17,180 nt of DNA from Pleurotus ostreatus/Saccharomyces cerevisiae fusant (lineage: Eukaryota; Opisthokonta): assembly GCA_024196135.1 (NCBI GenBank), contig JAMQCK010000715.1, forward strand, positions 1 to 17,180, given 5' to 3'. The notes under the pieces were generated by a model. It saw only the letters and a list, made by a program, of their open reading frames with translations. It ran no database searches and was not told the origin of the DNA. The stretch's first letter is position 1, and each line of letters begins with the position of its first letter. The position numbers and the translations under genes were made by a program. Of the stretch, positions 800 through 15,954 are shown piece by piece.

Positions 800-2257
800 A
801 TGAATACCCCTTCATTGACTGAGGACTTAACACCAACCAAGATCCTGCCTCCTTCTGACAATGCATCACAAGATAAGAATCCTTCGGCCCCAATACATCT
901 CTTCCCTCCCGAGCTCCTCGCCGACATCTTCGACCTCACCGTGCCACCTTCTTGGTACCAACACTACGCCGGGCGCATCTTACTTCCCTTCACGCAAGTA
1001 TGCTCACACTGGCGCGCTGTAGCTCATTCGTGCATGTCCCACCTCTGGGCTGACATCCGCGTGCACATCGAGCACTCCCCGAAAGACTGGGGAAAGGTCG
1101 TCGCGGCATATCTCGAGCGCTCGTCCTCGAGCACGCGGCCGCTGATGATTACGCTGGACTTCACTATCGATCCCAACCCGTTCGCTGAGTCCGATGTCTG
1201 GCCGAGACTTGCGTGGGATCCCGAGGCATGGGCACTACTGTGTGCTCAGTCGCACCGGTGGGCGAAGGTCAAGCTGGATGCGATCCCGCGCGAGGCGTAT
1301 GCAGGGCAGTCCCTATATTGCCCATTCCTCTCACAACTATCTCTTGGCTTACTCGAAGAAACCTCCACTGGTTCGGGCGCGCCAGAATCCATCGCAGACG
1401 TCCCCACAACCTTCTTCGCCGACGCGCCCGCCCTCGAGGCCCTCGCCGTCTCCCTCGAGCACAAGCCCGCCTCCTTCGTCATCCCTCCCGCCTGGAAGCT
1501 CGCCCGCCTCTCCATCCTCGACCGCCTCACCACGCCCTCGGGCACCTTCGGCGCCTGCGCCCACGCCGTGCGCGCCTCCTCCCGCACCCTCACCCACCTC
1601 GCCATCGACGTCATGAATTTCGGCGAATGGATCGGCCCGCACGCGACGCTCCCCGCCCTCCAGACGCTCTACCTCGCGCGCGGCGCCCTCGCGGTCGCCC
1701 CGCGCTACCTCGCCGCGCCCGCCATCCATACACTCACCCTGTGCGCGGGCTGGGGGTGCGTGCACCCGCAGGAGCAGGCCGCGCTGGCGCTCATGGTGCG
1801 CCGCTCGGATGGCATGCCGCACCTGCGCACCATGTACCTCCGCGGGATGGCCGCGAACGGGCTGACCATCCACCCCTGCCTCGCGCTGTTCCCTAGCGTA
1901 ACTTCTCTCGCGCTCGACTTCCACACGCAGACCGCGCAGAACGAGCACGTCCGGATTGTGGGCAAATTCATGCACCGGGAGAGGCACTCCAGGGACCCGA
2001 AGCGGCTTGGGCAGCGGTTCAAGACGATGCCGGAGCTGAGGTCGTTGTCGATTGTGTTTGGGGAGCAGTGGAAGAAGAATGTGTTGATCGGGCACTTCGT
2101 GCGGCATATGCTGGAGAGGAGAGCGGTGAATCCGGAGGGGTCGAGGACGTTAAAGACGTTCGATAGCGACATGGTACCGGACGGGCATGTAGTAGGGGAA
2201 TGGCCGGTGCTGAGGCTCTTTGATGAGCCAAGGGGGATGGAGTTTCCTGTGCCATAG
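800..2257 (+). CDS. F-box-like protein (single exon, 485 aa)
   Basis: Probable substrate-recognition subunit of an SCF (Skp1-Cullin-F-box) ubiquitin ligase, of the type greatly expanded in mushroom-forming fungi. The F-box-like domain is at about residues 32-85. It opens with the typical LFPPELLADIF, followed after an insertion by FTQVCSHWRAVAHSCMSHLWADI, the usual CRxWR-x-A-x-x-x-P-x-LW pattern of the family. The remaining 400 residues have irregular leucine-rich stretches (for example LQTLYLARGAL and LRTMYLRGM), as expected for a degenerate LRR substrate-binding half. No intron is needed; the frame is open from ATG to TAG. Third codon positions are C-rich at about 1400-1760 and turn G-rich after about 1990. 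It converges on COX17, with 204 bp between the two stop codons. The target protein cannot be predicted. Confidence 0.85.
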   Translation: MNTPSLTEDLTPTKILPPSDNASQDKNPSAPIHLFPPELLADIFDLTVPPSWYQHYAGRILLPFTQVCSHWRAVAHSCMSHLWADIRVHIEHSPKDWGKVVAAYLERSSSSTRPLMITLDFTIDPNPFAESDVWPRLAWDPEAWALLCAQSHRWAKVKLDAIPREAYAGQSLYCPFLSQLSLGLLEETSTGSGAPESIADVPTTFFADAPALEALAVSLEHKPASFVIPPAWKLARLSILDRLTTPSGTFGACAHAVRASSRTLTHLAIDVMNFGEWIGPHATLPALQTLYLARGALAVAPRYLAAPAIHTLTLCAGWGCVHPQEQAALALMVRRSDGMPHLRTMYLRGMAANGLTIHPCLALFPSVTSLALDFHTQTAQNEHVRIVGKFMHRERHSRDPKRLGQRFKTMPELRSLSIVFGEQWKKNVLIGHFVRHMLERRAVNPEGSRTLKTFDSDMVPDGHVVGEWPVLRLFDEPRGMEFPVP

Positions 2258-3735: not shown

Positions 3736-6700
3736 GGAAGTACGCGCTGCCCTTGCTGGTGCTCCTCTTACCTGCTCTGACCCTCGCGCAAACCTGCGAA
3801 AACTATGGGGTCCAGAACGGCTCGTCTTGTGCTTGTCCGGTCGGGTTTGGGGGAGACTCGTGCTCGGACATGGCGTGTGGGGGGACGATATTCGATGGCG
3901 CGCAGAGGTCGATGACGACCCATCGATCTGGCGCATTCGCCAACTTGACCGCGTCGGACTGCTCTTGCGAGGATGGGTGGACAGGGACAGGGTGCAACGT
4001 CTGCCAGACATCGAGCGCATGCCAGGCTTGGGATGGCGCGTCGTCGTCTTCGTCTTCTCTTGGCGACTCAACCTCCATTCAAAATAACACCCTTGTATGC
4101 AACACGGAGCCCCGCGTCTACGCCTCCAGCCAGATGAGCTGTGACGTGAAGGTGCGCTTCCTCGAATTCACTACCCATTCGACGCCTCCCTGACGGCCTT
4201 CCGCAGAACCCCACCTTGCAGGCCATCTTCCCGCTGTCCTCCACATTGAACATCATGCGCACCCTAGACCCGTCGCTCTCCCCGCTTCCCAACGTCACCT
4301 CCTTCGGCGTGTCGATGTCGGTCTTCGCGCAACTCATTTACGACGGGGTCGAGCAGTTCTATTGTACGGCAGACTCGTGCACGCAGGACTTCGACAACAG
4401 CACGAACAAGGCGGATTGGAGCTGCCAGAACTTGCAATGCACTTGCCGCGCGAACACGAGCTTCTGTGGTGGGGTGTCCATCTCGGACATCACACAGGTC
4501 ATCAATGGGCTCAGCGGCGAGCTCGATATCGATTGCGAGACTCCTGACTCGTCAGGCCAGGCAGCTTGCTCGTTCAAGCAGAGTATGCTCACTAGTCTCT
4601 TCGGCGCGGACGGCTTGTCGCTGAGTGGGTGTCGCTTTGGTGAATGCGTTCGGCAATATGTTATCGACAATGCTACCGATTCGTCTTCTCCCAGCGACGA
4701 CCAAGGAAGCTCGCTCAGCGCTGGGGTTATCGCAGGCTTGGCCGTCGTTGGGGCGCTTGTCGGGCTTGTTATCTTGCTCATCATCTTTGGATTCCTGAAG
4801 CAGCGCCGAGCACGTCGTACCGGGAATGTCGACCTCGGCAACGGAGGCGTAGGCATCGAATGGCGTAACCTCACCTACACGGTCGCCGGAGACAAGACCG
4901 TCCTCGACGATGTCACAGGTGCTGTCCGCCCCGGCCAAATCGTCGCTATCCTCGGCCCCAGTGGCGCCGGCAAGACCACCCTCGTCGAGATCCTCGCCGG
5001 CAAGAGCAAGTCCGGCGACATCGCCGGCAGCGTCATCTATACCGGCACCCACGAAACCGCCCGCCGCCCGCGCATCGGCTTCGTCCCCCAACAAGACGTC
5101 CTCCCCTCCATGCTCACCGTCCGCGAGGCCCTGCTCTTCGCCGCGCGCCTACGGCTTCCGGAAGCCCTCCCGGACACCGAGAAAGCCGCCCGCGTCGACG
5201 CGCTCATCGAGCGCCTCGGCCTCGCCAACGTCGCCACCACCCGCATCGGCGGCGCGCGCACGCGCGGGATCTCCGGCGGCGAGATGCGCCGCGTCTCCAT
5301 CGGCCTCGAGCTCGTCGGCAGCCCGGACGTGCTCATCCTCGACGAGCCGACGAGCGGGCTGGACAGCGTCTCCGCGGCGCGCATCGCGAACGTCCTCCGC
5401 GATATCGCGCACGACCCCGCGCGCCCGACGGCGGTGGTGGCGAGCATCCACCAGCCGAGCAGCCAGTTGTACCACGCGTTCGACGGGGTGGTGCTGTTGG
5501 CGCATGGGAATGCGCTGTACGCGGGGCATGGGAGGTTTGGGCCGGTGGACTACTTTAGGGGGAGGGAGGGGGTGGGGGAGTATCCGGAGGGGTATAATGT
5601 GGCGGACTATCTGCTGGAGATTGCGAGTGACGCGCCGGCGGGGCTGTTCCAAAGGGGCGTGGCCTATCAGAAGGAAGGATCCTCGTTTGCGCGGGGCGCG
5701 TCGGCGTCCGACCAGGCGATCTCGGAGAAGACGAGCGCGGACGATGTGGAGATGCTCTCCAAGGGGCACAAACACTCGCAGCACTGGAACTCGAGGCCGG
5801 TCAGGGGATGGAGACGATGGTCGCCGTCTTGGGCGACGTTGCGCGTGGATTATGCGACGACATTCTTGACGCAGATCGAGGTGCTGTCGGGGCGGGAGTG
5901 GAAAATCCTGCGGAGGTGAGCAGTCTTTGTGGGCTGTTGACCGCTTGCTGACCCACTGTTCTCTGCAGGGATAAGACCTTATGCCTGGCTCACATTGGTA
6001 TCGCCTCGGTGCTCGGCGTCTTTTGCGGTACGACTGACGTGTTCAGTATGTTGGCCCAGTGCTGACCTTACTTGCCTCCTCAGGTGGTCTGTACTACCAC
6101 ACGGATCAAAGCATCGCTGGCTTCCAGTCTCGCGTCGGCTGCTTGTTCTTTGTGGTTCGTGTTCGCTCGTCTCGAATTATTGTCGTAACCCTGACCGCTA
6201 ATTAGGGCGCACTCATCGCGTTCTCCTCGCTGAGCGCCTTGTTCAATGTGGTTCAAGCGCGTGAGCTCTTCTTGCGCGAGCGGTCAAGTGGGTTCTATAG
6301 GTCAGTCAGAGGGAAAGGCTGTTGCACGAAGGTTCAATTGACCAATGGGACAGTCCTACTGCGTGGTTAGCGACGCGTATCCTCTTTGACGTCGTGCCAC
6401 TGCGATTGCTGCCGACGATCATTGTCTCGACTATGTACGTGACGATCAACATAGTCATCTTACTTGGATAGACTCACGCGAGACGCTTTGCAGAACGTAC
6501 TGGATGGCCGGCCTTGCGGACGATGCTGCTCACTTCTTCAAGTACCTCTTCATTCTTGTCTTGTATACGCTTGCAATCACGCTTTGGGTTCGCCTCTCGC
6601 TCCTTTGCCGTCGCCTCAAGCTGACCCTGTCGTGCAGAATTTCTTTCTCGGCACTCTGTTTGAGAACGGAGGAGTCGCCATCCTGCTCTCAGCGTTGTCA

Positions 6701-7479: not shown

Positions 7480-9211
<1,732 letters not shown>

Positions 9212-9736
9212 GCACATAATCCTCGTGACTGTATAGTATGTAGCAATGTACTGTATTCCGCTGTGTCTTAGCGACGATTGGGTGGTCTGTTTATCTCGCA
9301 CTATGGTTTTGGGATGCGAGGAAACCACAATGTTTGACACGACGAAAAAGGATGCTGGCAAGCCAGTACACCTAGAAAAGACCACACAACTCTCATCTTC
9401 AGCACAAAGGCCAGCCACGCAGCACATTGTCAAGTACATTTTCCGAAGAAGCGCGCCGGACAATGGCCATTGAGGGCGCCTGTGATTGAAATAACCCCGA
9501 AGCGGAACCAAATTACGCGGGGCCTGCCGCATTTGGTTCCGCTGGAGGACGTCGAGGGTTGGCCTTGACCACCCCATGCCACACCGCATAGCACTGCCCG
9601 CAGCTGGCCTGCGCGCCTTCTTTCATGTTCTCTCCATTGATACGCAGTCTAGTCCGGCGCTTGTGTCGCCTCGTGTTTAGGTCAAAGACGGGGTCCCGTG
9701 ACTAGCTCGTGTCTTCCATTGATCGGACCGGCGGGG
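9212..9736. other. intergenic region downstream of sirtuin
   Basis: No gene is recognisable. Open frames on either strand are short and unlike protein. The region contains the inverted repeat annotated at 9501-9543 and then leads into a promoter-like segment. Confidence 0.5.
9501..9543. repeat. perfect 13-bp inverted repeat with nested short stem
   Basis: The left arm 9501-9513 (AGCGGAACCAAAT) is the exact reverse complement of 9531-9543. The 17-nt spacer contains a further GCGG (9517-9520) and CCGC (9527-9530) that can pair, so an RNA or extruded DNA hairpin of about 17 bp with an internal loop is possible. It lies 290 bp after the sirtuin stop and about 200 bp before the next promoter. It could be a 3'-processing structure, a protein-binding palindrome, or the remnant of a small inverted-repeat element. 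Confidence 0.75.
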
Positions 9737-9872
9737 TACAAAAGGCCAGGGTCCTCGCTTGATCCCCCATCTCCCATCTTCTCTTCTGCCCCCATCACCT
9801 CCCCCGAGTGATGAGCGCGTCGCAGGGCGTGTCTCTCCCTTGCTTCTCTTCTTCTCTCTTCCTCTTTGCGCT
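9737..9872 (+). promoter_or_regulatory. probable Pol II core promoter and CT-rich leader of the ribozyme-bearing unit
   Basis: A TACAAAAG (9737-9744) is followed about 25-30 bp later by long pyrimidine tracts (9762-9805 and 9832-9870). In fungi, CT-rich tracts next to the transcription start are typical of strongly expressed Pol II genes. No convincing protein gene begins immediately downstream, so the likely product is the long repeat-containing RNA described at 9770-13760. The start site is inferred. Confidence 0.45.
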
Positions 9873-10010
9873 CTACTATACACGACGAGCGGCTTGCGAT
9901 CGTCGCGGTGTCCACTGCGCCTGACATCGTCCCCCGCGTCGTTTGCTCGTTACCGTTCTCGCTCCTCCTCGTGTCTTGCACCATCGTGTCTCCTACTATA
10001 GTCTACCTAC

Positions 10011-11026
10011 ATGCCACCTACCTACAATCCCCAAGCCGGCCTCAACACCGCTCCTCGACGCGTTCTCTTTCACGACCGCCACTTTGTGGCGGATAGGCGC
10101 CTGGCTTTACCGGACGCTCAAGGCTTTCGTGGACGGGTATTTGTGACGAAAAGTGGCTCTCAAGGTGTGTGGCAATGCTAGTGCGCGCATGCTTCTGCTC
10201 ATTGCTTCTGTAGATCGTCGACGCCACTTGACCCTGGATGCTGGCTTGTCACTAGGTGTGTGATCACTCACCTTCCCATCATTCTCCATACTGATTATCT
10301 ATCAGGATCTTCGCGTCTCTATTTGCGTCTACGCTCTTATGCCTGCGCTTTCTCTTTCGTCGGCGCCACTCCTTCGCGAACGAGACGCCATTCGACCACC
10401 GACCTCAAGCGCGTCAAGTCCGATCGCACTACTTCACCTACCTTTTGCTCATCGACCTCAAGCTTATTCAAGGCTCTCCGTCGACACCAACGAACCTACG
10501 TCAACATCCTCAAAGACCTCTCCCGACTCTTCTACAGTGTGTGCAAGGCCCGTCGGTTTGTCTTTTTCCTCTTCGATCCTCAAGACGCGCTCTCGACATC
10601 AAGACACGCCTTCTACCACGCGATCTACTTTCGACATCAAGACGAACCACAGACGCTCACCGAACCTTGCTTCGCTTCGATACCTGCAAGACCGGCTCTC
10701 GACCTCCGCACGACTCGCTCTCTAGCTGCTCTACGTCGCCCTCTCGAATCGGTTTCTCTCTGCCCATCGACCTCCCGGAGCAAGATCGAGTGCAAGACTC
10801 AACATGCGTGCCTCAAGCGACTTGTGTGCCTCAAGATCCCTTGGGATAGGTACATCGCCGGCGGGCGATGCACCGGCGCCAGACCTCAACGTGGTCCAAG
10901 GGTGAACCCCTCGGCTCTGTCGAGGGGGCCAACTGGCGTTCGGGAGCGCAGGAGTGAGCGTGAGGTGAGTTTCAACTCTGCTATCCGTTCGCCATGGCTG
11001 ACGGCCTTTCGCAGCGTGATGCGTGA
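10011..11026 (+). CDS. possible spliced ORF upstream of and through ribozyme 1 (doubtful)
   Basis: An ATG at 10011 opens a frame that stays open across two predicted introns (10165-10213 and 10256-10305). It continues through ribozyme 1 and, if the 10965-11014 intron is removed, ends at TGA 11024-11026 after 288 codons. Without that splice it ends at 11030. The predicted protein is rich in Arg, Ser, Thr and Leu, has no known domain, and its distal half is direct translation of CTCAAGAC-like repeats and of the ribozyme. The frame may be open only because the DNA is GC-rich. It could also be a real leader peptide whose mRNA is cut by the ribozyme. I consider non-coding more likely. Confidence 0.2.
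10838..10939 (+). ncRNA. HDV-like self-cleaving ribozyme, copy 1
   Basis: P1 is 10838-10844 (CCCTTGG) with 10896-10902 (CCAAGGG). J1/2 carries an extra hairpin, 10849-10859 with 10864-10874: ten pairs, one A/C mismatch, GGCG loop. P2 is 10876-10882 (GCGCCAG) with 10933-10939 (CTGGCGT). P3 is ACC/GGT, 10883-10885 with 10893-10895. L3 is TCAACGT. P1.1 can form between C10887-A10888 and T10903-G10904. P4 is 10907-10913 (CCCCTCG) with 10921-10927. J4/2 reads G-C-C-A-A, with the expected catalytic C at 10929, equivalent to C75 of the HDV genomic ribozyme. The cleavage site would lie just before 10838. The 5' flank is a CTCAAGA-rich sequence shared with copy 4. Confidence 0.9.
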
Positions 11027-11584
11027 TTGAATGAGCTTGGAGTGTGCTCGACCGCAACAGTCGGTGCATGGCGAATGCGCGCTGGTTTCAACCTTCTCGG
11101 TCTCTCCGTCAGTCTTCTCATGTTGAGGTTGAGATCGCGCACGAGTTACAGCTCTCGTCGCTGTCTACGCTCCCCTCACTGTAAGAGCCCGAGGTCTCTC
11201 GCGCCTTGCGAGCTGACGCGTCTAGCGCCTGAGTCTAACGTGCGTGCCCCTTCTACTTCTCTTCCCCAATCTTGCTGATCAACTTTCAGTGTCGCGCTTC
11301 CGCCGACGTTAACGCGCTCTCGATGTGATAAGCTGCCTCAGTCTCCTCACTCCCTTAGCCCTCGCCCTTCGACCTATCGTTCCCGCCCTTCGACCGCTCG
11401 TACTCATCAGTATCGCGCTCTCGGAGGTCCACGTCACGCGCTCGCTTGCCCCGTCATCGCTGGTCTCTCCGTCGTTTTGCTTGAGCTTCGTCATCGCATT
11501 CGGCCCTCGTCCTCTCCCACCGCTATAGCCACCTTTCTCTATCACAAGGTCTCCCTAACGGGGAGACCGGGCCCGAAGGGCCTT
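10940..11584 (+). repeat. module 1 spacer, homologous to module 2
   Basis: The sequence after ribozyme 1 contains GGAGTGAGCGTGAG directly before a 50-nt intron (10965-11014), then an exon with a small hairpin (stem 11049-11052 with 11060-11063). A second 50-nt intron (11240-11289) ends just before TGTCGCGCTTCCGCCGAC. The same order and near-identical junction strings occur after ribozyme 2, so the two modules are diverged tandem duplicates. Exonic sequence has stops in all three plus frames. The last 40 bases hold the double hairpin upstream of ribozyme 2. Confidence 0.75.
11548..11582 (+). repeat. double hairpin just upstream of ribozyme 2
   Basis: GGTCTCCC (11548-11555) pairs with GGGAGACC (11561-11568). 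Then GGCCC (11570-11574) pairs with GGGCC (11578-11582) around a GAA loop. It ends 2 nt before the predicted cleavage site and recurs before ribozymes 3 and 5. After cleavage it would form the 3' end of the upstream RNA. Confidence 0.75.
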
Positions 11585-11677
11585 CCCTTGGACTAGGTGT
11601 ACTTCGGACACCGGCGCCAGGCCTCAACGTGGCCCAAGGGTGAACCCCTCGGCTTTGTCGAGGGGGCCAACTGGCGT
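11585..11677 (+). ncRNA. HDV-like self-cleaving ribozyme, copy 2
   Basis: P1 is 11585-11591 with 11634-11640. The J1/2 hairpin is 11596-11600 (GGTGT) with 11608-11612 (ACACC), capped by a C(TTCG)G tetraloop with one bulged A. P2 is 11614-11620 with 11671-11677. P3 is GCC/GGC, 11621-11623 with 11631-11633. L3 is TCAACGT. The P1.1 partners are C11625-A11626 and T11641-G11642. P4 is 11645-11651 (CCCCTCG) with 11659-11665. The expected catalytic C is 11667, followed by C-A-A. All core positions match the family, and the fold needs no mismatches outside the J1/2 bulge. Confidence 0.92.
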
Positions 11678-12261
11678 TTTCGCTCGAAGGAGTGAGCGTG
11701 AGGTATGTTCAATCCCTTGTTTACACTTCATCGTCGCTGATCGTCTTTCGCAGAGTGATGTGTAATTGAGTGAGCTTGGGTCGTCACCGACTGCAACCGT
11801 CGGTGCTTGGCAAGAGCGTGCTGAGTGGCATTTGCCTTCTCAGTCTCTCATTCAGAAGTTTCCTGCTAAGCTCTGAGAGAAAGCGCAGTTCGTAGCTCTT
11901 GTGCGAAGACGCTTAGAATTCTCGCGCCAGCCTGACCGACTCATACATCGTATGAGTTGAACGTGCGTGTCATTTTATTTCCCTTCCGGACACATGCTCA
12001 TCAGATTATAGTGTCGTGCTTCCGCCGACCTCAACGTGCTCTCGGGATTATCAGTTGTGGTGTCGCTCCTGAGTCGTCGCCGCGGCATGCTTGTCGTCCG
12101 TGCTCTCGTCGTCTTTCTCTCCCTCTCCCAGCATCGCTATCCCGGCCTTCATCGTGCTCGAGTCTTGTCATTCAATTAGGCTCTCGTCCTCTCGCACCAC
12201 TGCATCCACCTTTCTCCTTTACAAGGTCTCCCTGACGGGGAGTCCGGGCCTCAAGGGCCTT
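11678..12261 (+). repeat. module 2 spacer, homologous to module 1
   Basis: It repeats the layout of module 1: GGAGTGAGCGTGAG, a 51-nt intron (11703-11753, GCTGATC branch), an exon with a clean hairpin (CACCGAC 11785-11791 with GTCGGTG 11799-11805), and a 49-nt intron (11963-12011). The acceptor of that intron is followed by TGTCGTGCTTCCGCCGAC, nearly identical to module 1. The exons are well diverged while junctions and hairpins are kept. No open frame of interest runs through it. It ends in the double hairpin before ribozyme 3. Confidence 0.75.
12225..12259 (+). repeat. double hairpin just upstream of ribozyme 3
   Basis: GGTCTCCC (12225-12232) pairs with GGGAGTCC (12238-12245) with one T/T mismatch. 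GGCCT (12247-12251) pairs with GGGCC (12255-12259) including a terminal U-G. It stops 2 nt before ribozyme 3, exactly as in copy 2. Confidence 0.65.
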
Positions 12262-12389
12262 CCCTTGGAATAGGGCGCGCGTCTTCGGCGGTCCCGCAAG
12301 AGGCCGCCGTCGGCCGTGTCCCGGCGCCAGGCCTCAACGCGGCCCAAGGGTGAACCCCACCAGCTTTGCGGGTGGGGGCCAACTGGCGT
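12262..12389 (+). ncRNA. HDV-like self-cleaving ribozyme, copy 3 (expanded J1/2)
   Basis: P1 is 12262-12268 with 12344-12350. The J1/2 insertion is the largest of the five (12273-12322). It is closed by GGG/CCC and contains an inner stem GGCGG (12287-12291) with CCGCC (12304-12308). P2 is 12324-12330 with 12383-12389. P3 is GCC/GGC and L3 is TCAACGC. The P1.1 partners are C12335-A12336 and T12351-G12352. P4 differs from copies 1 and 2, CCCCACC (12355-12361) with GGTGGGG (12371-12377), a compensatory change that keeps seven pairs. The expected catalytic C is 12379, then C-A-A. Confidence 0.88.
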
Positions 12390-12647
12390 GTCTGACGATG
12401 CGTAGGAAGACATCGTCGGGCGAACATCAAGGAGCAAGCCTTCGTCGGGCGAACAGCAAGGAGCAAGAAGGGCAGCAAGGAGCAAGAGGGCAGCAAGAAG
12501 CAAGAGCACCTCAAGACCGGAGTGAGAGCAAGGCGCAAGACCTCAACGTCCTCAAGACCGGCCGCGGAGTAAGAGCAAGACGCAAGACCTCAAGACGCGT
12601 GCCTCAAGCTGTGTGCTTCAAGAATCAAGACTGTGTGCCTCAAGACC
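12390..12647 (+). repeat. CAAG-rich imperfect tandem repeat between ribozymes 3 and 4
   Basis: From about 12421 the sequence is a run of GCAAGGAGCAAGA, GGGCAGCAAG and CCTCAAGAC-like units, ending GTGTGCCTCAAGACC at ribozyme 4. The purine-rich first part (12421-12520) has short direct repeats such as TCGTCGGGCGAACA-CAAGGAGCAAG, present twice. The end of the stretch is homologous to the 5' flank of ribozyme 1 (10790-10837). This spacer has none of the introns of the other modules, so it looks like a shortened or differently assembled unit. It would release the smallest RNA, 386 nt from cleavage site to cleavage site. Confidence 0.7.
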
Positions 12648-12729
12648 CCCTTGGAATAGGCGCTCCGCGCCGGCGCCAGACCTCATCGTGGTCCAAGGGT
12701 GAACCTCCTTTGGGAGGGCCAACTGGCGT
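12648..12729 (+). ncRNA. HDV-like self-cleaving ribozyme, copy 4 (most compact)
   Basis: P1 is 12648-12654 with 12693-12699. The J1/2 hairpin is GGCGC (12659-12663) with GCGCC (12667-12671). P2 is 12673-12679 with 12723-12729. P3 is ACC/GGT, 12680-12682 with 12690-12692. L3 is TCATCGT. The P1.1 partners are C12684-A12685 and T12700-G12701. P4 is shortened to five pairs, CCTCC (12704-12708) with GGAGG (12713-12717). The expected catalytic C is 12719, then C-A-A. At 82 nt it is the shortest copy and still keeps every core position. Confidence 0.9.
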
Positions 12730-13560
12730 ATATCGACTTGAGGATTGTTGTGTGAGGTGCGCTCTTCCTTCGCTACTTCGACTTCCGATGCTGACCGTCT
12801 TTTGCAGGTTCCGGTTCGTACTTGTGTAAGGGTGAGCACGCCGTCGCCGTCAAGCGCTTTGGCGATGGCTCCATTGAGTGTAACTTTTCCGCGCGCGTCC
12901 AAGCAAATCATCGCGCGCACTCTGAGTTGATGGACTCGCGCGGCGATTAAGTTCCCGTGCGTACGCTCTGTCTTCCCCTCGCGTTGGACTTGGGCTAATT
13001 CATATTCTATAGCGCTCGCGCTCCCGCGGGCATCGACGTTTCTTCGGTTGAGTCGTCGAGAGGATGCCGTCCTGAGCTTGCTTTGAGCCTCAACATCGTT
13101 AGGATTTGGCGCCCCGTCGTCGCCACCGACGTCTGCGAGCATCCTGGCAAGAACCTCGGGCGACTCTTCTCCCGTGATTTTGCATTGCTGAGTCTTAGCC
13201 CGCATTGAGACGAAAGAAACTCCGACCTTCCATTTGCCGCGCGCATTGAGCGCGGCGTGCTTGGCCTCATGTGAGTAGTTGTTATCACTCGTCTGTATCG
13301 TGCTGAATACTGACCTGGATACAGTGTTTTTTCTTTCGCTGGACGAGCATACGCCCAAACACTTGCAGCAGCGAGCCGAAGTCCTCTCTACAATCCTCTT
13401 CTCCATCTCGTTTACCGCTCCCTGAGTGCGCGGCAAGGTTTTCATCTCCACTAAGCGTCGCTCTCGAGCCGTCCTACATTTGTGGGCGATTCCGCCATTC
13501 TTAGACCCACTGAGGTTTTCTTCTGGTCTCCCTTGAAGGGAGACCGGGCCACAACAGCCC
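12730..13560 (+). repeat. module 4 spacer with three predicted introns
   Basis: It contains introns 12757-12807 (GCTGACC branch), 12957-13012 and 13271-13324 (ACTGACC branch). The first two sit where the introns of modules 1 and 2 sit relative to their ribozymes. The exon after the first intron can form a hairpin (CGCC 12845-12848 with GGCG 12861-12864, extended by GCC/GGC), again in the corresponding place. The rest is longer than in other modules and shows no plus-strand protein. A 277-codon minus-strand open frame crosses all three introns and ribozyme 4; I treat it as fortuitous. The 3' end is the double hairpin before ribozyme 5. Confidence 0.6.
13525..13560 (+). repeat. double hairpin just upstream of ribozyme 5
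   Basis: GGTCTCCCT (13525-13533) pairs with AGGGAGACC (13537-13545), nine pairs around a TGA loop. Then GGGC (13546-13549) pairs with GCCC (13557-13560). The second stem differs in sequence from copies 2 and 3 but stays paired, and abuts the predicted cleavage site. Confidence 0.75.
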
Positions 13561-13658
13561 CCCTTGGAATAGGTTGCGCTTTCGAGCGCGACCGGCGCCA
13601 GGCCTCATCGCGGCCCAAGGGTGAACCCCTCGGCTTTGTTGAGGGGGCCAACTGGCGT
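13561..13658 (+). ncRNA. HDV-like self-cleaving ribozyme, copy 5
   Basis: P1 is 13561-13567 with 13615-13621. The J1/2 hairpin is GGTTGCGCT (13572-13580) with AGCGCGACC (13585-13593), nine pairs including one U-G, with a TTCG loop. P2 is 13595-13601 with 13652-13658. P3 is GCC/GGC and L3 is TCATCGC. The P1.1 partners are C13606-A13607 and T13622-G13623. P4 is CCCCTC (13626-13631) with GAGGGG (13641-13646), extended by a G-U pair where the other copies have C-G or G-C. The expected catalytic C is 13648, then C-A-A. Confidence 0.9.
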
Positions 13659-14165
13659 GCCGTCTTTGGCTTTCCGTTCCCTCTCGCGACGCATGTTATC
13701 GGTAAGCTCCTTCGAGATCGATACTTGGGAAGATGGCCTTTTGTTTTCGATGGAGACCAGGAGCGAGGCGCGAGAAGGGTGAGTTAATAGAGGTGGCGCT
13801 CTCGCTACGTGCACCTAGAACATGAGGGTGCCCCATCTTGCACAGCTGGGTCTAGAGGATGCAAGCTTCGTTCCTTCTGAGCTTCCTTGCCTCGGATGCA
13901 GGCAAAGGTTAACATTTCGCTCTGTAAATTCTCCCAATCATTACTCAAATTTTGTGTTTGAATATCTTGCAACTGCCTCTAAGCAGTCGACATCCACGTA
14001 CTCTGGTGTGCGAGCAAAAGTTGAACCGTGACCAAACCGTGACAGTCATGTGCCCCGCCTTTGTTCCGCTTTTGGAAGGAAGAATAACGAGTGTCCTAAC
14101 TTGTCCTGAACCTCCATATGCGCACAATGGTATCCCCTTATCGGGTCTCAATGACTTTCTCTCAA
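13659..14165. other. region after the last ribozyme and promoter of the second F-box gene
   Basis: A possible last intron (GTAAGC 13702 to CAG 13760) follows ribozyme 5, with no clear branch site. After about 13800 the base composition changes to more AT-rich, marking the end of the repeat unit. A short tandem repeat, AACCGTGACC then AAACCGTGAC, lies at 14024-14043 and could be a transcription-factor site. No protein gene is supported here. Confidence 0.4.
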
Positions 14166-14173: not shown

Positions 14174-14223
14174 GGCAGGGATGCGGCATGCCATTCCACT
14201 CTCCCCTCGCATACGCGAAGAGC

Positions 14224-15954
14224 ATGTCCCACCACGATCGAAGTACGCGTCGGTCTGCTGAGCGGACACCGGGTCCTACCACTTCAGCCATCCTTCGACT
14301 TCAGCCGGTGAGTCAAAAACGAAAGTGGAAGCTATCTCTCGCTGACACTTACCAACAGCGCTGGGACGCGTCGAATCGAAGGTCTGCTGGCTCGTACTCG
14401 CCGTCATTTTCTGCTCCTCTTGAAGGCGGGGCCAATTCATGCGCTCCTACGGCTAGCGATCGTAATGAGCTTTCTGTCTTTTCCAAGCCTACCCACTCCG
14501 TTTATTTACCTGCGCTGCCACCGCTCTCCTTCGACTCCTGGCGCCCAGGCTACGGGAATCCCGAGCTATCACCCCTCACGATCTCCCTTTCCCCGGCGTC
14601 AAGTGACATTCATATTGCCTTCGTGAACGAGATGCCGCCCGAAATTCTGGCGGAGATATTCGTGCACACCCTGCCGCTGCGCGTGGACGATGCGAAGCCT
14701 AACCGTTGGTACGAACCTCTCGTCATCAGCCATGTCTGCCGTTATTGGAGAGACGTGGCAATAAACCTTCCGACTCTATGGCAGCGGCTCTCCTTGGCAG
14801 GATGTCCGAGCATGCACGACCACCGCCCCCTTGAACTCGCTCGCCTTTTCGCGGACAGATCATGCGGCATGGGTATGCTGTTCGAATATAGCGATGATGA
14901 AGCATCCATCCTGCTCTGGCATGACCCCGAAGAACTCGTCCCCAATGGCCTTCCAATCACACCCGCGAACCAGCGATGCTACTGCGTTCTCGACTTCATC
15001 ATCTCGCACATCGCGCAGATACGCGTGCTCGAACTCACCGTCGTACACGCATCGTGCCATCGGCTCGCAGCCCTTCCACAAGGAGCAGCACCCGTATTGC
15101 GCGAGATCTCCGTCCAGTTCCTCGAGGGAGGAGAGGAAACGCAGGCGCTCTCCCACCTATACGCTACCTCGCCACAGCTGGCGCATTTTTCCAGAAGGAG
15201 CTATATGGAAATCTGCAGTATACCGCTCCCGATCGATGTGCCCTGGCAACGGCTCGTCAGCGCTCATATCGGCGACTCTCCTGTTCCCCACACCAAGTTC
15301 CTCGAGATCATGGCTGCTGGACAATCGCTGGCGCAGCTCGAGATCGTTCTCTGCCCTGACGCACATACGCCCTTCAGGCCACTGCAAACCCCAATCGCCC
15401 AGAACAACCTGCGGACCCTTATTGTCTATGACGATGAGCCGCTCGATGCTGTTCTGCAGAGCCTTCGACTCCCCTCACTCCGCGAAGTGAGACTGCGGCC
15501 GAAAACGAGCGATCCCCCTGTTTGGCCTTGCAACGATGCGAGCATTCTGCAACAATTCGTTCAGGCGACATCGGGAGGATTGCATGTCTTGGAACTGTCG
15601 GATGCGATTAGCCTGTCCCAAGGAGACTTGATAGCTCTGCTTCAGCTCCCGCAGGCAGCGTCGCTTACCACGCTGCAAGTGTGCGGTCCGCTCATACAGG
15701 ACGCGTTTTTTACTCTTCTGGATCCTGCAAGCGGACCACCACTTGCACCTGATTTGACAAAATTGATTATCAGCCGTTGTGCTATTACTGACGGTATCAT
15801 TGCGGACATGCTTGCCTCGCGTCAACAACATCACCATCCTCTGCGCTCTGTGCATATTGTTTACCACCCCTTATGTCAAGGTCGACATTCCAAGGATATA
15901 TCTGGTTTCCAATTTCTGAAGGAGCAGTACGGCATGCGCATATGGTGGGCGTGA
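14224..15954 (+). CDS. F-box-like protein with probable 51-nt in-frame intron
   Basis: Probable SCF ubiquitin-ligase substrate receptor, distinct in sequence from the one at 800-2257. The frame is open from 14188, but the TATA box favours the ATG at 14224. Bases 14308-14358 look like an intron: GTGAGT donor, GCTGAC branch site, CAACAG acceptor, 51 nt, phase 0. Because 51 is a multiple of three without a stop, retention adds 17 residues (SQKRKWKLSLADTYQQ region) and splicing removes them. Spliced length is 559 aa. The F-box-like domain is at about residues 116-175: NEMPPEILAEIF, then ISHVCRYWRDVAINLPTLWQRLSL. The C-terminal part has irregular LRR-like segments (for example LRTLIVYDDEP and LTKLIISRCAITD). 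It converges on the next gene with 68 bp between them. Codon use lacks the C-to-G shift of the left-hand genes. Confidence 0.85.
   Translation: MSHHDRSTRRSAERTPGPTTSAILRLQPVSQKRKWKLSLADTYQQRWDASNRRSAGSYSPSFSAPLEGGANSCAPTASDRNELSVFSKPTHSVYLPALPPLSFDSWRPGYGNPELSPLTISLSPASSDIHIAFVNEMPPEILAEIFVHTLPLRVDDAKPNRWYEPLVISHVCRYWRDVAINLPTLWQRLSLAGCPSMHDHRPLELARLFADRSCGMGMLFEYSDDEASILLWHDPEELVPNGLPITPANQRCYCVLDFIISHIAQIRVLELTVVHASCHRLAALPQGAAPVLREISVQFLEGGEETQALSHLYATSPQLAHFSRRSYMEICSIPLPIDVPWQRLVSAHIGDSPVPHTKFLEIMAAGQSLAQLEIVLCPDAHTPFRPLQTPIAQNNLRTLIVYDDEPLDAVLQSLRLPSLREVRLRPKTSDPPVWPCNDASILQQFVQATSGGLHVLELSDAISLSQGDLIALLQLPQAASLTTLQVCGPLIQDAFFTLLDPASGPPLAPDLTKLIISRCAITDGIIADMLASRQQHHHPLRSVHIVYHPLCQGRHSKDISGFQFLKEQYGMRIWWA

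Follow-up and report, generated by a model that had tools for sequence, protein, structure and literature searches.

Fungal genomes are known to harbor variants of the hepatitis delta virus (HDV) ribozyme. In the main text of the report describing them, 230 copies are counted in 26 species, and C-G is the usual cut-site pair. The P4 helix of these variants contains a loop E, one additional base separates P2 from P3, and cleavage in vitro was demonstrated for one Penicillium copy and one Aspergillus copy (PMC5640933). Tandem self-cleaving ribozymes with a predicted release of unit-length RNAs are described for the animal and plant retrozymes, i.e., many-copy retroelements that carry hammerhead ribozymes and have short units (approximately 170 to 400 nucleotides [nt] in animals; PMC7229834, PMC7761336). 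The RNAs released by the animal retrozyme hammerheads are described as most likely closed by tRNA ligases (PMC7229834). The theta ribozymes of gut phages are also HDV-like, adjoin tRNAs, and process transcripts at a defined 3' end (PMC10879173). Here, we describe a stretch of 17,180 bases (the window, i.e., the whole of contig C964 from an assembly of 40.05 Mb in 1,277 contigs) in which five copies of an HDV-like ribozyme, R1 to R5, are arranged head to tail, all on the + strand. We consider it likely that the five copies belong to one non-coding RNA polymerase II transcript, predicted to be spliced, which would dice itself in a fungus that is likely Schizophyllum commune.

In the HDV-like class, loop L3 has a C at the second place and C-G at the fifth and sixth places, and the catalytic C (i.e., C75) stands unpaired before N-A-A. 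The copies in the window share these features (the unpaired C lies in J4/2) together with the strand order, a 7-bp P1, a 3-bp P3, and a two-pair P1.1. The family differs from the class in J1/2, which is 19 to 56 nt long and contains its own hairpin, and in copy number, which reaches seven per locus. A fungal host and a C-G cut-site pair are shared with the fungal variants as described in the main text of PMC5640933; in the copies as parsed here, however, P3 follows P2 directly, without the extra base, and P4 is a near-continuous helix (96.3% of cells paired over eight pairs in the alignment presented below) in which loop E is absent, as judged by eye. Unlike the retrozymes described in PMC7229834 and PMC7761336, the loci are few, the ribozymes are of the HDV type, and the units are unequal and bear predicted introns; no hammerhead family was among the Rfam matches in the window. 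The predicted processing at a defined 3' end is a point of likeness to the theta ribozymes of PMC10879173, but no tRNA was found in the window.

Fungal HDV-type ribozymes and tandem hammerhead retrozymes are therefore known already. The literature that we searched, which covers few subscription journals and no preprints, yielded no report of HDV-type ribozymes in Schizophyllum or of an HDV-type array in a spliced non-coding transcript. The words "Schizophyllum," "tandem," and "basidio" do not occur in the main text of PMC5640933, whose species list is in its supplements. A preliminary description of the window had proposed that the array is new. Fungal HDV-type ribozymes with a C-G cut pair are published (PMC5640933), which narrows that proposal to the HDV-type array in a spliced non-coding gene family, for which these searches gave no example.

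Ribozyme fold and family

The core pattern (P2 to P1.1) matched the window five times, compared with a mean of 0.00 over 200 shuffles. This confirms the five copies at the places given in the preliminary description. An HDV-topology descriptor, a kind of test that the description had proposed, specified a 7-bp P1, a 6-bp P2, a 3-bp P3, and a P4 hairpin, with the stem letters left free; L3 was fixed at 7 nt with its C pairing with the G of P1.1, and C-N-A-A preceded P2'. Applied to both strands of the window, it detected R1 to R5 and nothing else, with 0 matches in 100 dinucleotide shuffles of the window. The nested strand order P1-P2-P3-P3'-P1'-P4-P4'-P2' that had been proposed for the element thus holds for all five copies.

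P1, P2, and P3 are fully complementary in each copy of the window, L3 reads UCANCGN, J1.1/4 reads UGAA, and J4/2 reads GCCAA. The parsed copies carry P1 CCCUUGG/CCAAGGG, P2 CGCCAG/CUGGCG, and P3 RCC/GGY, with UGAA after P1', a variable P4, and then GCCAA. The five positions previously assigned to the catalytic C (Table 1) are the first C of GCCAA in the respective copies. P2 could gain one base through a G-U pair, and R5 would then end at 13658. An A-U pair in P1.1 had been described as compensated; it is a difference from HDV, but it is constant in 39 of 39 copies of the family and therefore contributes no covariation within it.

Allowing up to three mismatches, the core pattern matched the genome at 38 places on nine contigs (reversed-pattern control, 0), and one further degenerate copy brings the alignable set to 39. 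The arrays contain five copies in C964 and C963, seven in C438 and C556, seven in C630 (four plus three, 3.3 kb apart), three in C818, two in C373 and C648, and one in C638. The descriptor was passed by 35 of the 39 copies in the stretches fetched from the nine contigs; for the C638 match, the chosen P1 strand begins upstream of the P1 strand in the alignment. Of the 39 copies, 14 follow CAAGAC-rich sequence (type C), 22 follow a GGTCTCCC hairpin (type H), and three are unassigned. C964 and C963 have the order C-H-H-C-H, and C438 and C556 have the order C-H-H-H-C-H-H. The spacers within the arrays are unequal (156 to 1045 nt) and diverged, and those of the R1 and R4 units have matches on array contigs only.

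The fold was evaluated in an alignment of the 39 copies (30 pairs; 1,150 cells), with the pseudoknotted structure read from the same sequences. Paired cells made up 97.2% of the total, compared with 89.1% when the letters of the 3' strands were dealt anew and 37.4 to 53.2% when the strands were slid by one to three columns. Two-sided changes were found in 105 cells (shuffled mean, 35.1) and in 12 of the 30 pairs, a number of pairs reached by one of 500 shuffles. These pairs are located in P1 (U-A to C-G in two copies, C438_R2 and C556_R2), in P3 (A-U for G-C in 13 copies, and A-U for C-G in C630_R1), in seven of the eight pairs of P4, and in two of the four pairs of the J1/2 hairpin. These helices are kept by compensated changes. 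The cut-site pair is C-G in 38 of 39 copies, and the base preceding the predicted cut is T in 25 and C in 14. J4/2 reads GCNAA in 36 copies (GCCAA in 35 and GCTAA in one) and GCCAG in one, while two damaged copies have no parse there.

The conservation of these copies was examined between contigs that appear to represent the two haplotypes. C963 aligns end to end with the window (17,194 versus 17,180 bases; 86.6%), and the first 387 and last 98 bases are identical; the two contigs are therefore read as the arms of an assembly bubble. C438 and C556 align at 85.2% and C373 and C648 at 84.7%, over 8.4 to 9.9 kb. We infer that these are three haplotype pairs. Matches to the RNA polymerase largest subunit occur on only three contigs, suggesting a largely collapsed assembly; a haplotype partner of C638 was looked for, and none was found. 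Over 15 haplotype pairs of copies, 10 of 720 sites differ in the ribozyme core, with four of the 10 in the damaged copy C556_R5, and 74 of 756 sites differ in the variable stems, compared with 905 of 6,329 sites in 11 spacers of the three contig pairs (Fisher p = 3e-32, with sites that are not independent). The divergence of the core is thus approximately ten times below that of the spacers. Identity between haplotypes is 80.6% in the F-box gene of the window, 91.7% in the leader stretch (9458 to 10837), and 96 to 99.5% within 9800 to 10399. Since the core is conserved and the spacers diverge approximately like the rest of the locus, selection most likely acts on cutting itself and on the shape of the ends, rather than on the sequence of the pieces.

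Further observations concern the dynamics of the family. In C818, the first part of one C630 array is fused to the last part of the other, with approximately 5.6 kb missing; copy number therefore differs between the presumed haplotypes, perhaps through unequal recombination. C963_R1 (L035:6268-6388, - strand) and C630_R2 (L033:8383-8498, - strand) occupy non-matching positions and both have a P4 of approximately 40 nt, which suggests that stems have been exchanged between copies. Searching with a covariance model made from all 39 copies recovered four additional decayed copies on the array stretches (E < 0.01) and, outside the arrays, one decayed copy each on C43 (L051:3660-3758, - strand) and C746 (L052:3482-3572, - strand), both with most of L3 deleted. 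C63 has one core-pattern match with three mismatches. The core pattern had no match in viral contigs and none in bacterial and archaeal genomes, a set that holds no fungi and says little about distribution.

Predicted transcription, splicing, and cleavage

The region upstream of the array (9480 to 9800) matches five places in the genome, all on array contigs (C964, 100%; C630, 93%; C963, 92%; C818, 88%; and a second place in C630, 73%). A TATA-like box is present in all four aligned sequences, and a 12-bp inverted repeat is recognizable in the aligned C963, C818, and C630 sequences. This region may function as a promoter. Part of the leader is also found in C438 and C556, at 68 to 70%.

All 17 long units of one kind have an intron-like sequence of 50 to 63 nt that begins 24 to 26 nt after P2', and all four of a second kind have such a sequence 27 to 28 nt after P2' (i.e., 21 of the 21 long units tested; the R1 units of C373 and C648 were left out). 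This regularity and the fungal host agree with the apparently spliced fungal transcript of the preliminary description, and its head-to-tail HDV-like array is upheld by the pair counts with their controls, the descriptor with its shuffles, and the haplotype conservation of the core.

On this basis, transcription would start from the TATA-like box near 9737 and yield a transcript without a protein product. Each ribozyme is likely to cut co-transcriptionally at its own 5' end, just 5' of CCCUUGG, at the first bases of R1 to R5 (Table 1). The predicted cuts would release a capped leader of approximately 1.07 kb, followed by units that measure 747, 677, 386, and 913 nt prior to splicing. Each unit would start with a ribozyme fold bearing a 5'-hydroxyl (5'-OH); where the next copy is of type H, the hairpin before its cut site would structure the 3' end, which would carry a 2',3'-cyclic phosphate. 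The GGTCTCCC hairpin is almost invariant across the 22 type-H copies, and a second, shorter hairpin, seen mainly by eye and weakly supported in the alignment, ends no more than approximately three bases from the cut. Splicing and cutting need not exclude each other, because the predicted introns lie within the units.

At 10845 to 10855 and at the same place in other type-C copies, the J1/2 of first copies reads GATAG/GTRNNN (the slash marks the boundary), and protein P0018 from another strain fits, by eye, splicing from this boundary to just before GTGAAC. Splicing from J1/2 would remove the ribozyme core, so a competition between splicing and cleavage is possible.

Two candidate structures were rejected. 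The exon after the first intron, considered as a structured RNA domain, had 11 predicted pairs and zero two-sided changes, and the unit spacers, considered as highly structured RNA, gave z scores of -0.97, -0.91, and -1.28 relative to shuffles in three folds.

Opposing evidence and alternative explanations

Several observations weigh against a self-dicing transcript, and those on coding potential are presented with that alternative below. P2 and P1.1 are nearly invariant and show zero two-sided changes; the support for the helix that forms the pseudoknot thus comes from complementarity and constraint and includes no covariation. Because the structure was read from the sequences that were counted, it has an advantage over the slid controls, and with copies that are related to one another the pair-count controls overstate independence. 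Four of the 39 copies are damaged and fail the descriptor, namely, C556_R5, C630_R4, C630_R5 (J4/2 lost), and C818_R3. The C-G cut-site pair departs from the R-Y consensus of the HDV-like class as given in the main text of PMC5640933. Cleavage, transcription, the introns, and the promoter are all predicted from sequence alone. Finally, a search of the window with all Rfam families (E up to 10) returned no HDV match, and RF00094 had no match over the genome (E up to 10), with 86 of 2045 first-look candidates scored; the covariance-model hit that the preliminary description expected did not materialize. Covariance models of this sort cannot hold the crossing helix. For this reason, and because J1/2 spans 19 to 56 nt with a hairpin of its own, we give the Rfam result little weight.

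An unlikely alternative is that the arrays represent a non-autonomous mobile element, or descend from one, and serve as a retrozyme-like factory of circular RNAs, in which tRNA ligase would circularize the released units. Fungal tRNA ligase fits the kind of ends that ribozymes leave, and several array loci are dispersed in the genome. The layout, with tandem ribozymes flanking units of a few hundred nucleotides, is also that of the animal retrozymes described in PMC7229834. However, there are at least 39 RVT_1 matches in the genome, and among the matches listed, none is on the nine array contigs; a reverse transcriptase downstream of the ribozyme, a trait of the 5' ribozymes of retrotransposons without long terminal repeats, is likewise absent among the matches listed. 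The inequality, divergence, and predicted introns of the spacers, two of which match array contigs only, also speak against such an element, and the three unit spacers fold little better than shuffles, unlike self-paired retrozyme circles. Since the loci share the upstream region and the copy order, the family looks like the product of gene duplication, and retrotransposition is less fitting.

We regard it as very improbable that the locus is a protein-coding gene with ribozymes in or beside its coding part, although the leader leaves a small open doubt. An open reading frame (ORF) in the leader is matched by six database proteins, five of which are hypothetical proteins of other S. commune records; the locus therefore exists there too. 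These hypothetical proteins begin at the equivalent of 10011, and two named proteins and one unnamed protein read, by eye, into the first ribozyme. Frame 10012 has a ratio of nonsynonymous to synonymous differences (pN/pS) of 0.37 against C818 (Fisher p = 0.025) and 0.36 against C630 (p = 0.014), with p values uncorrected for three frames, and of 0.72 against C963. On the other hand, the open stretch of this frame contains no ATG in C964, C963, or C818. The annotated frame, 10011, has pN/pS values of 0.71 to 0.84 against C963, C818, and C630 (150 bases), and in C963 it contains a one-base insertion and an in-frame stop. C964 and C963 differ by 33 indels from the TATA-like box to the 3' region (introns counted), and 27 of these have a length that is not divisible by three. 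No Pfam match was obtained for three array ORFs or for ten open frames from other array stretches, and an intact reading frame shared by the compared loci was not found in the leader. We therefore read the leader as probably non-coding. The coding-like substitution pattern of frame 10012 relative to C818 and C630 covers positions 10012 to 10140 of the window, though the ATG is absent in three of the four loci.

It is also very improbable that the arrays are decaying remnants, once active and no longer active or selected: four of the 39 copies are damaged, four more decayed copies lie on array contigs, and the C43 and C746 copies are without most of L3, but 35 copies satisfy the descriptor, and haplotype divergence in the core is approximately one-tenth of that in the spacers.

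Flanking genes, host, and significance

The features of the window are summarized in Table 1. The F-box protein encoded at 14188 to 15951 shares 86% identity with a protein of S. commune H4-8. Of its 12 database matches, 11 are named Schizophyllum commune, which makes this species the likely host. Between R5 and this F-box gene, positions 13800 to 13999 show a haplotype identity far above that of the following flank.

Table 1. Positions of observed and predicted features in the window
Feature	Position	Strand	Remarks
F-box-like protein	800-2257		Pfam match below curated cut-off
ABC transporter	4216-5919		ABC_tran match
SIR2-family protein	8117-8689		
Promoter-like region common to array loci	9480..9800	+	TATA-like TACAAAAG at 9737-9744
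12-bp inverted repeat, upstream region	9502..9542	+	Arms 9502-9513 and 9531-9542
Predicted transcribed leader	9770..10837	+	Putative transcription start, from TATA-like box
Predicted leader intron 1	10165..10213	+	Splice-site letters by eye; not among regular-expression matches
Predicted leader intron 2	10256..10305	+	GTGTGT..CTGAT..CAG, regular-expression match
Ribozyme R1	10838..10938	+	Predicted cut 10837/10838; predicted catalytic C 10929; P3 type A-U
Predicted intron, 26 nt after R1	10965..11014	+	Regular-expression match; unit comparison
Predicted second intron, R1 unit	11240..11289	+	Regular-expression match
Hairpin GGTCTCCC/GGGGAGACC, then short GGCC/GGCC hairpin	11548..11584	+	Directly 5' of R2 cut site
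Ribozyme R2	11585..11676	+	Predicted catalytic C 11667
Predicted intron, 26 nt after R2	11703..11753	+	Regular-expression match; unit comparison
Predicted second intron, R2 unit	11963..12011	+	By eye; not among regular-expression matches
Hairpins	12225..12261	+	Directly 5' of R3 cut site
Ribozyme R3	12262..12388	+	J1/2 of 56 nt; predicted catalytic C 12379
Short spacer between R3 and R4	12389..12647	+	Rich in CAAGAC-like repeats
Ribozyme R4	12648..12728	+	Predicted catalytic C 12719; P3 type A-U
Predicted intron, 28 nt after R4	12757..12807	+	Regular-expression match; unit comparison
Predicted further intron, R4 unit	12957..13012	+	Regular-expression match
Predicted further intron, R4 unit	13271..13324	+	Regular-expression match
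Hairpins	13525..13560	+	Directly 5' of R5 cut site
Ribozyme R5, last in array	13561..13657	+	Predicted catalytic C 13648
Region after R5	13658..13999	+	Haplotype identity 95.0% (13600-13799), 99.5% (13800-13999)
Second F-box-like protein	14188-15954		Pfam match below curated cut-off

To our knowledge, most genomic HDV-like ribozymes have no established role in the cell, and in this family the core is under clear constraint in 15 haplotype pairs of copies. The family is also an example of a ribozyme present in multiple copies that goes unreported in an Rfam scan. S. commune has been called the most polymorphic species known (PMC9187340), and because the likely host is so polymorphic and the core is constrained, the natural variants already amount to a mutational scan. 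The placement of the array in a predicted spliced transcript makes the competition of self-cleavage, splicing, and RNA stability directly testable, as the arrays do for the question of whether fungi produce circular RNA from them. Tentatively, and with somewhat less than even confidence, we propose a gene family whose product would be its own fragmentation, i.e., promoter-driven spliced non-coding transcripts with up to seven HDV-type ribozymes that may have been selected for cutting at fixed points into RNAs that would be end-protected and possibly circular, while drift would be unrestricted between the cuts.

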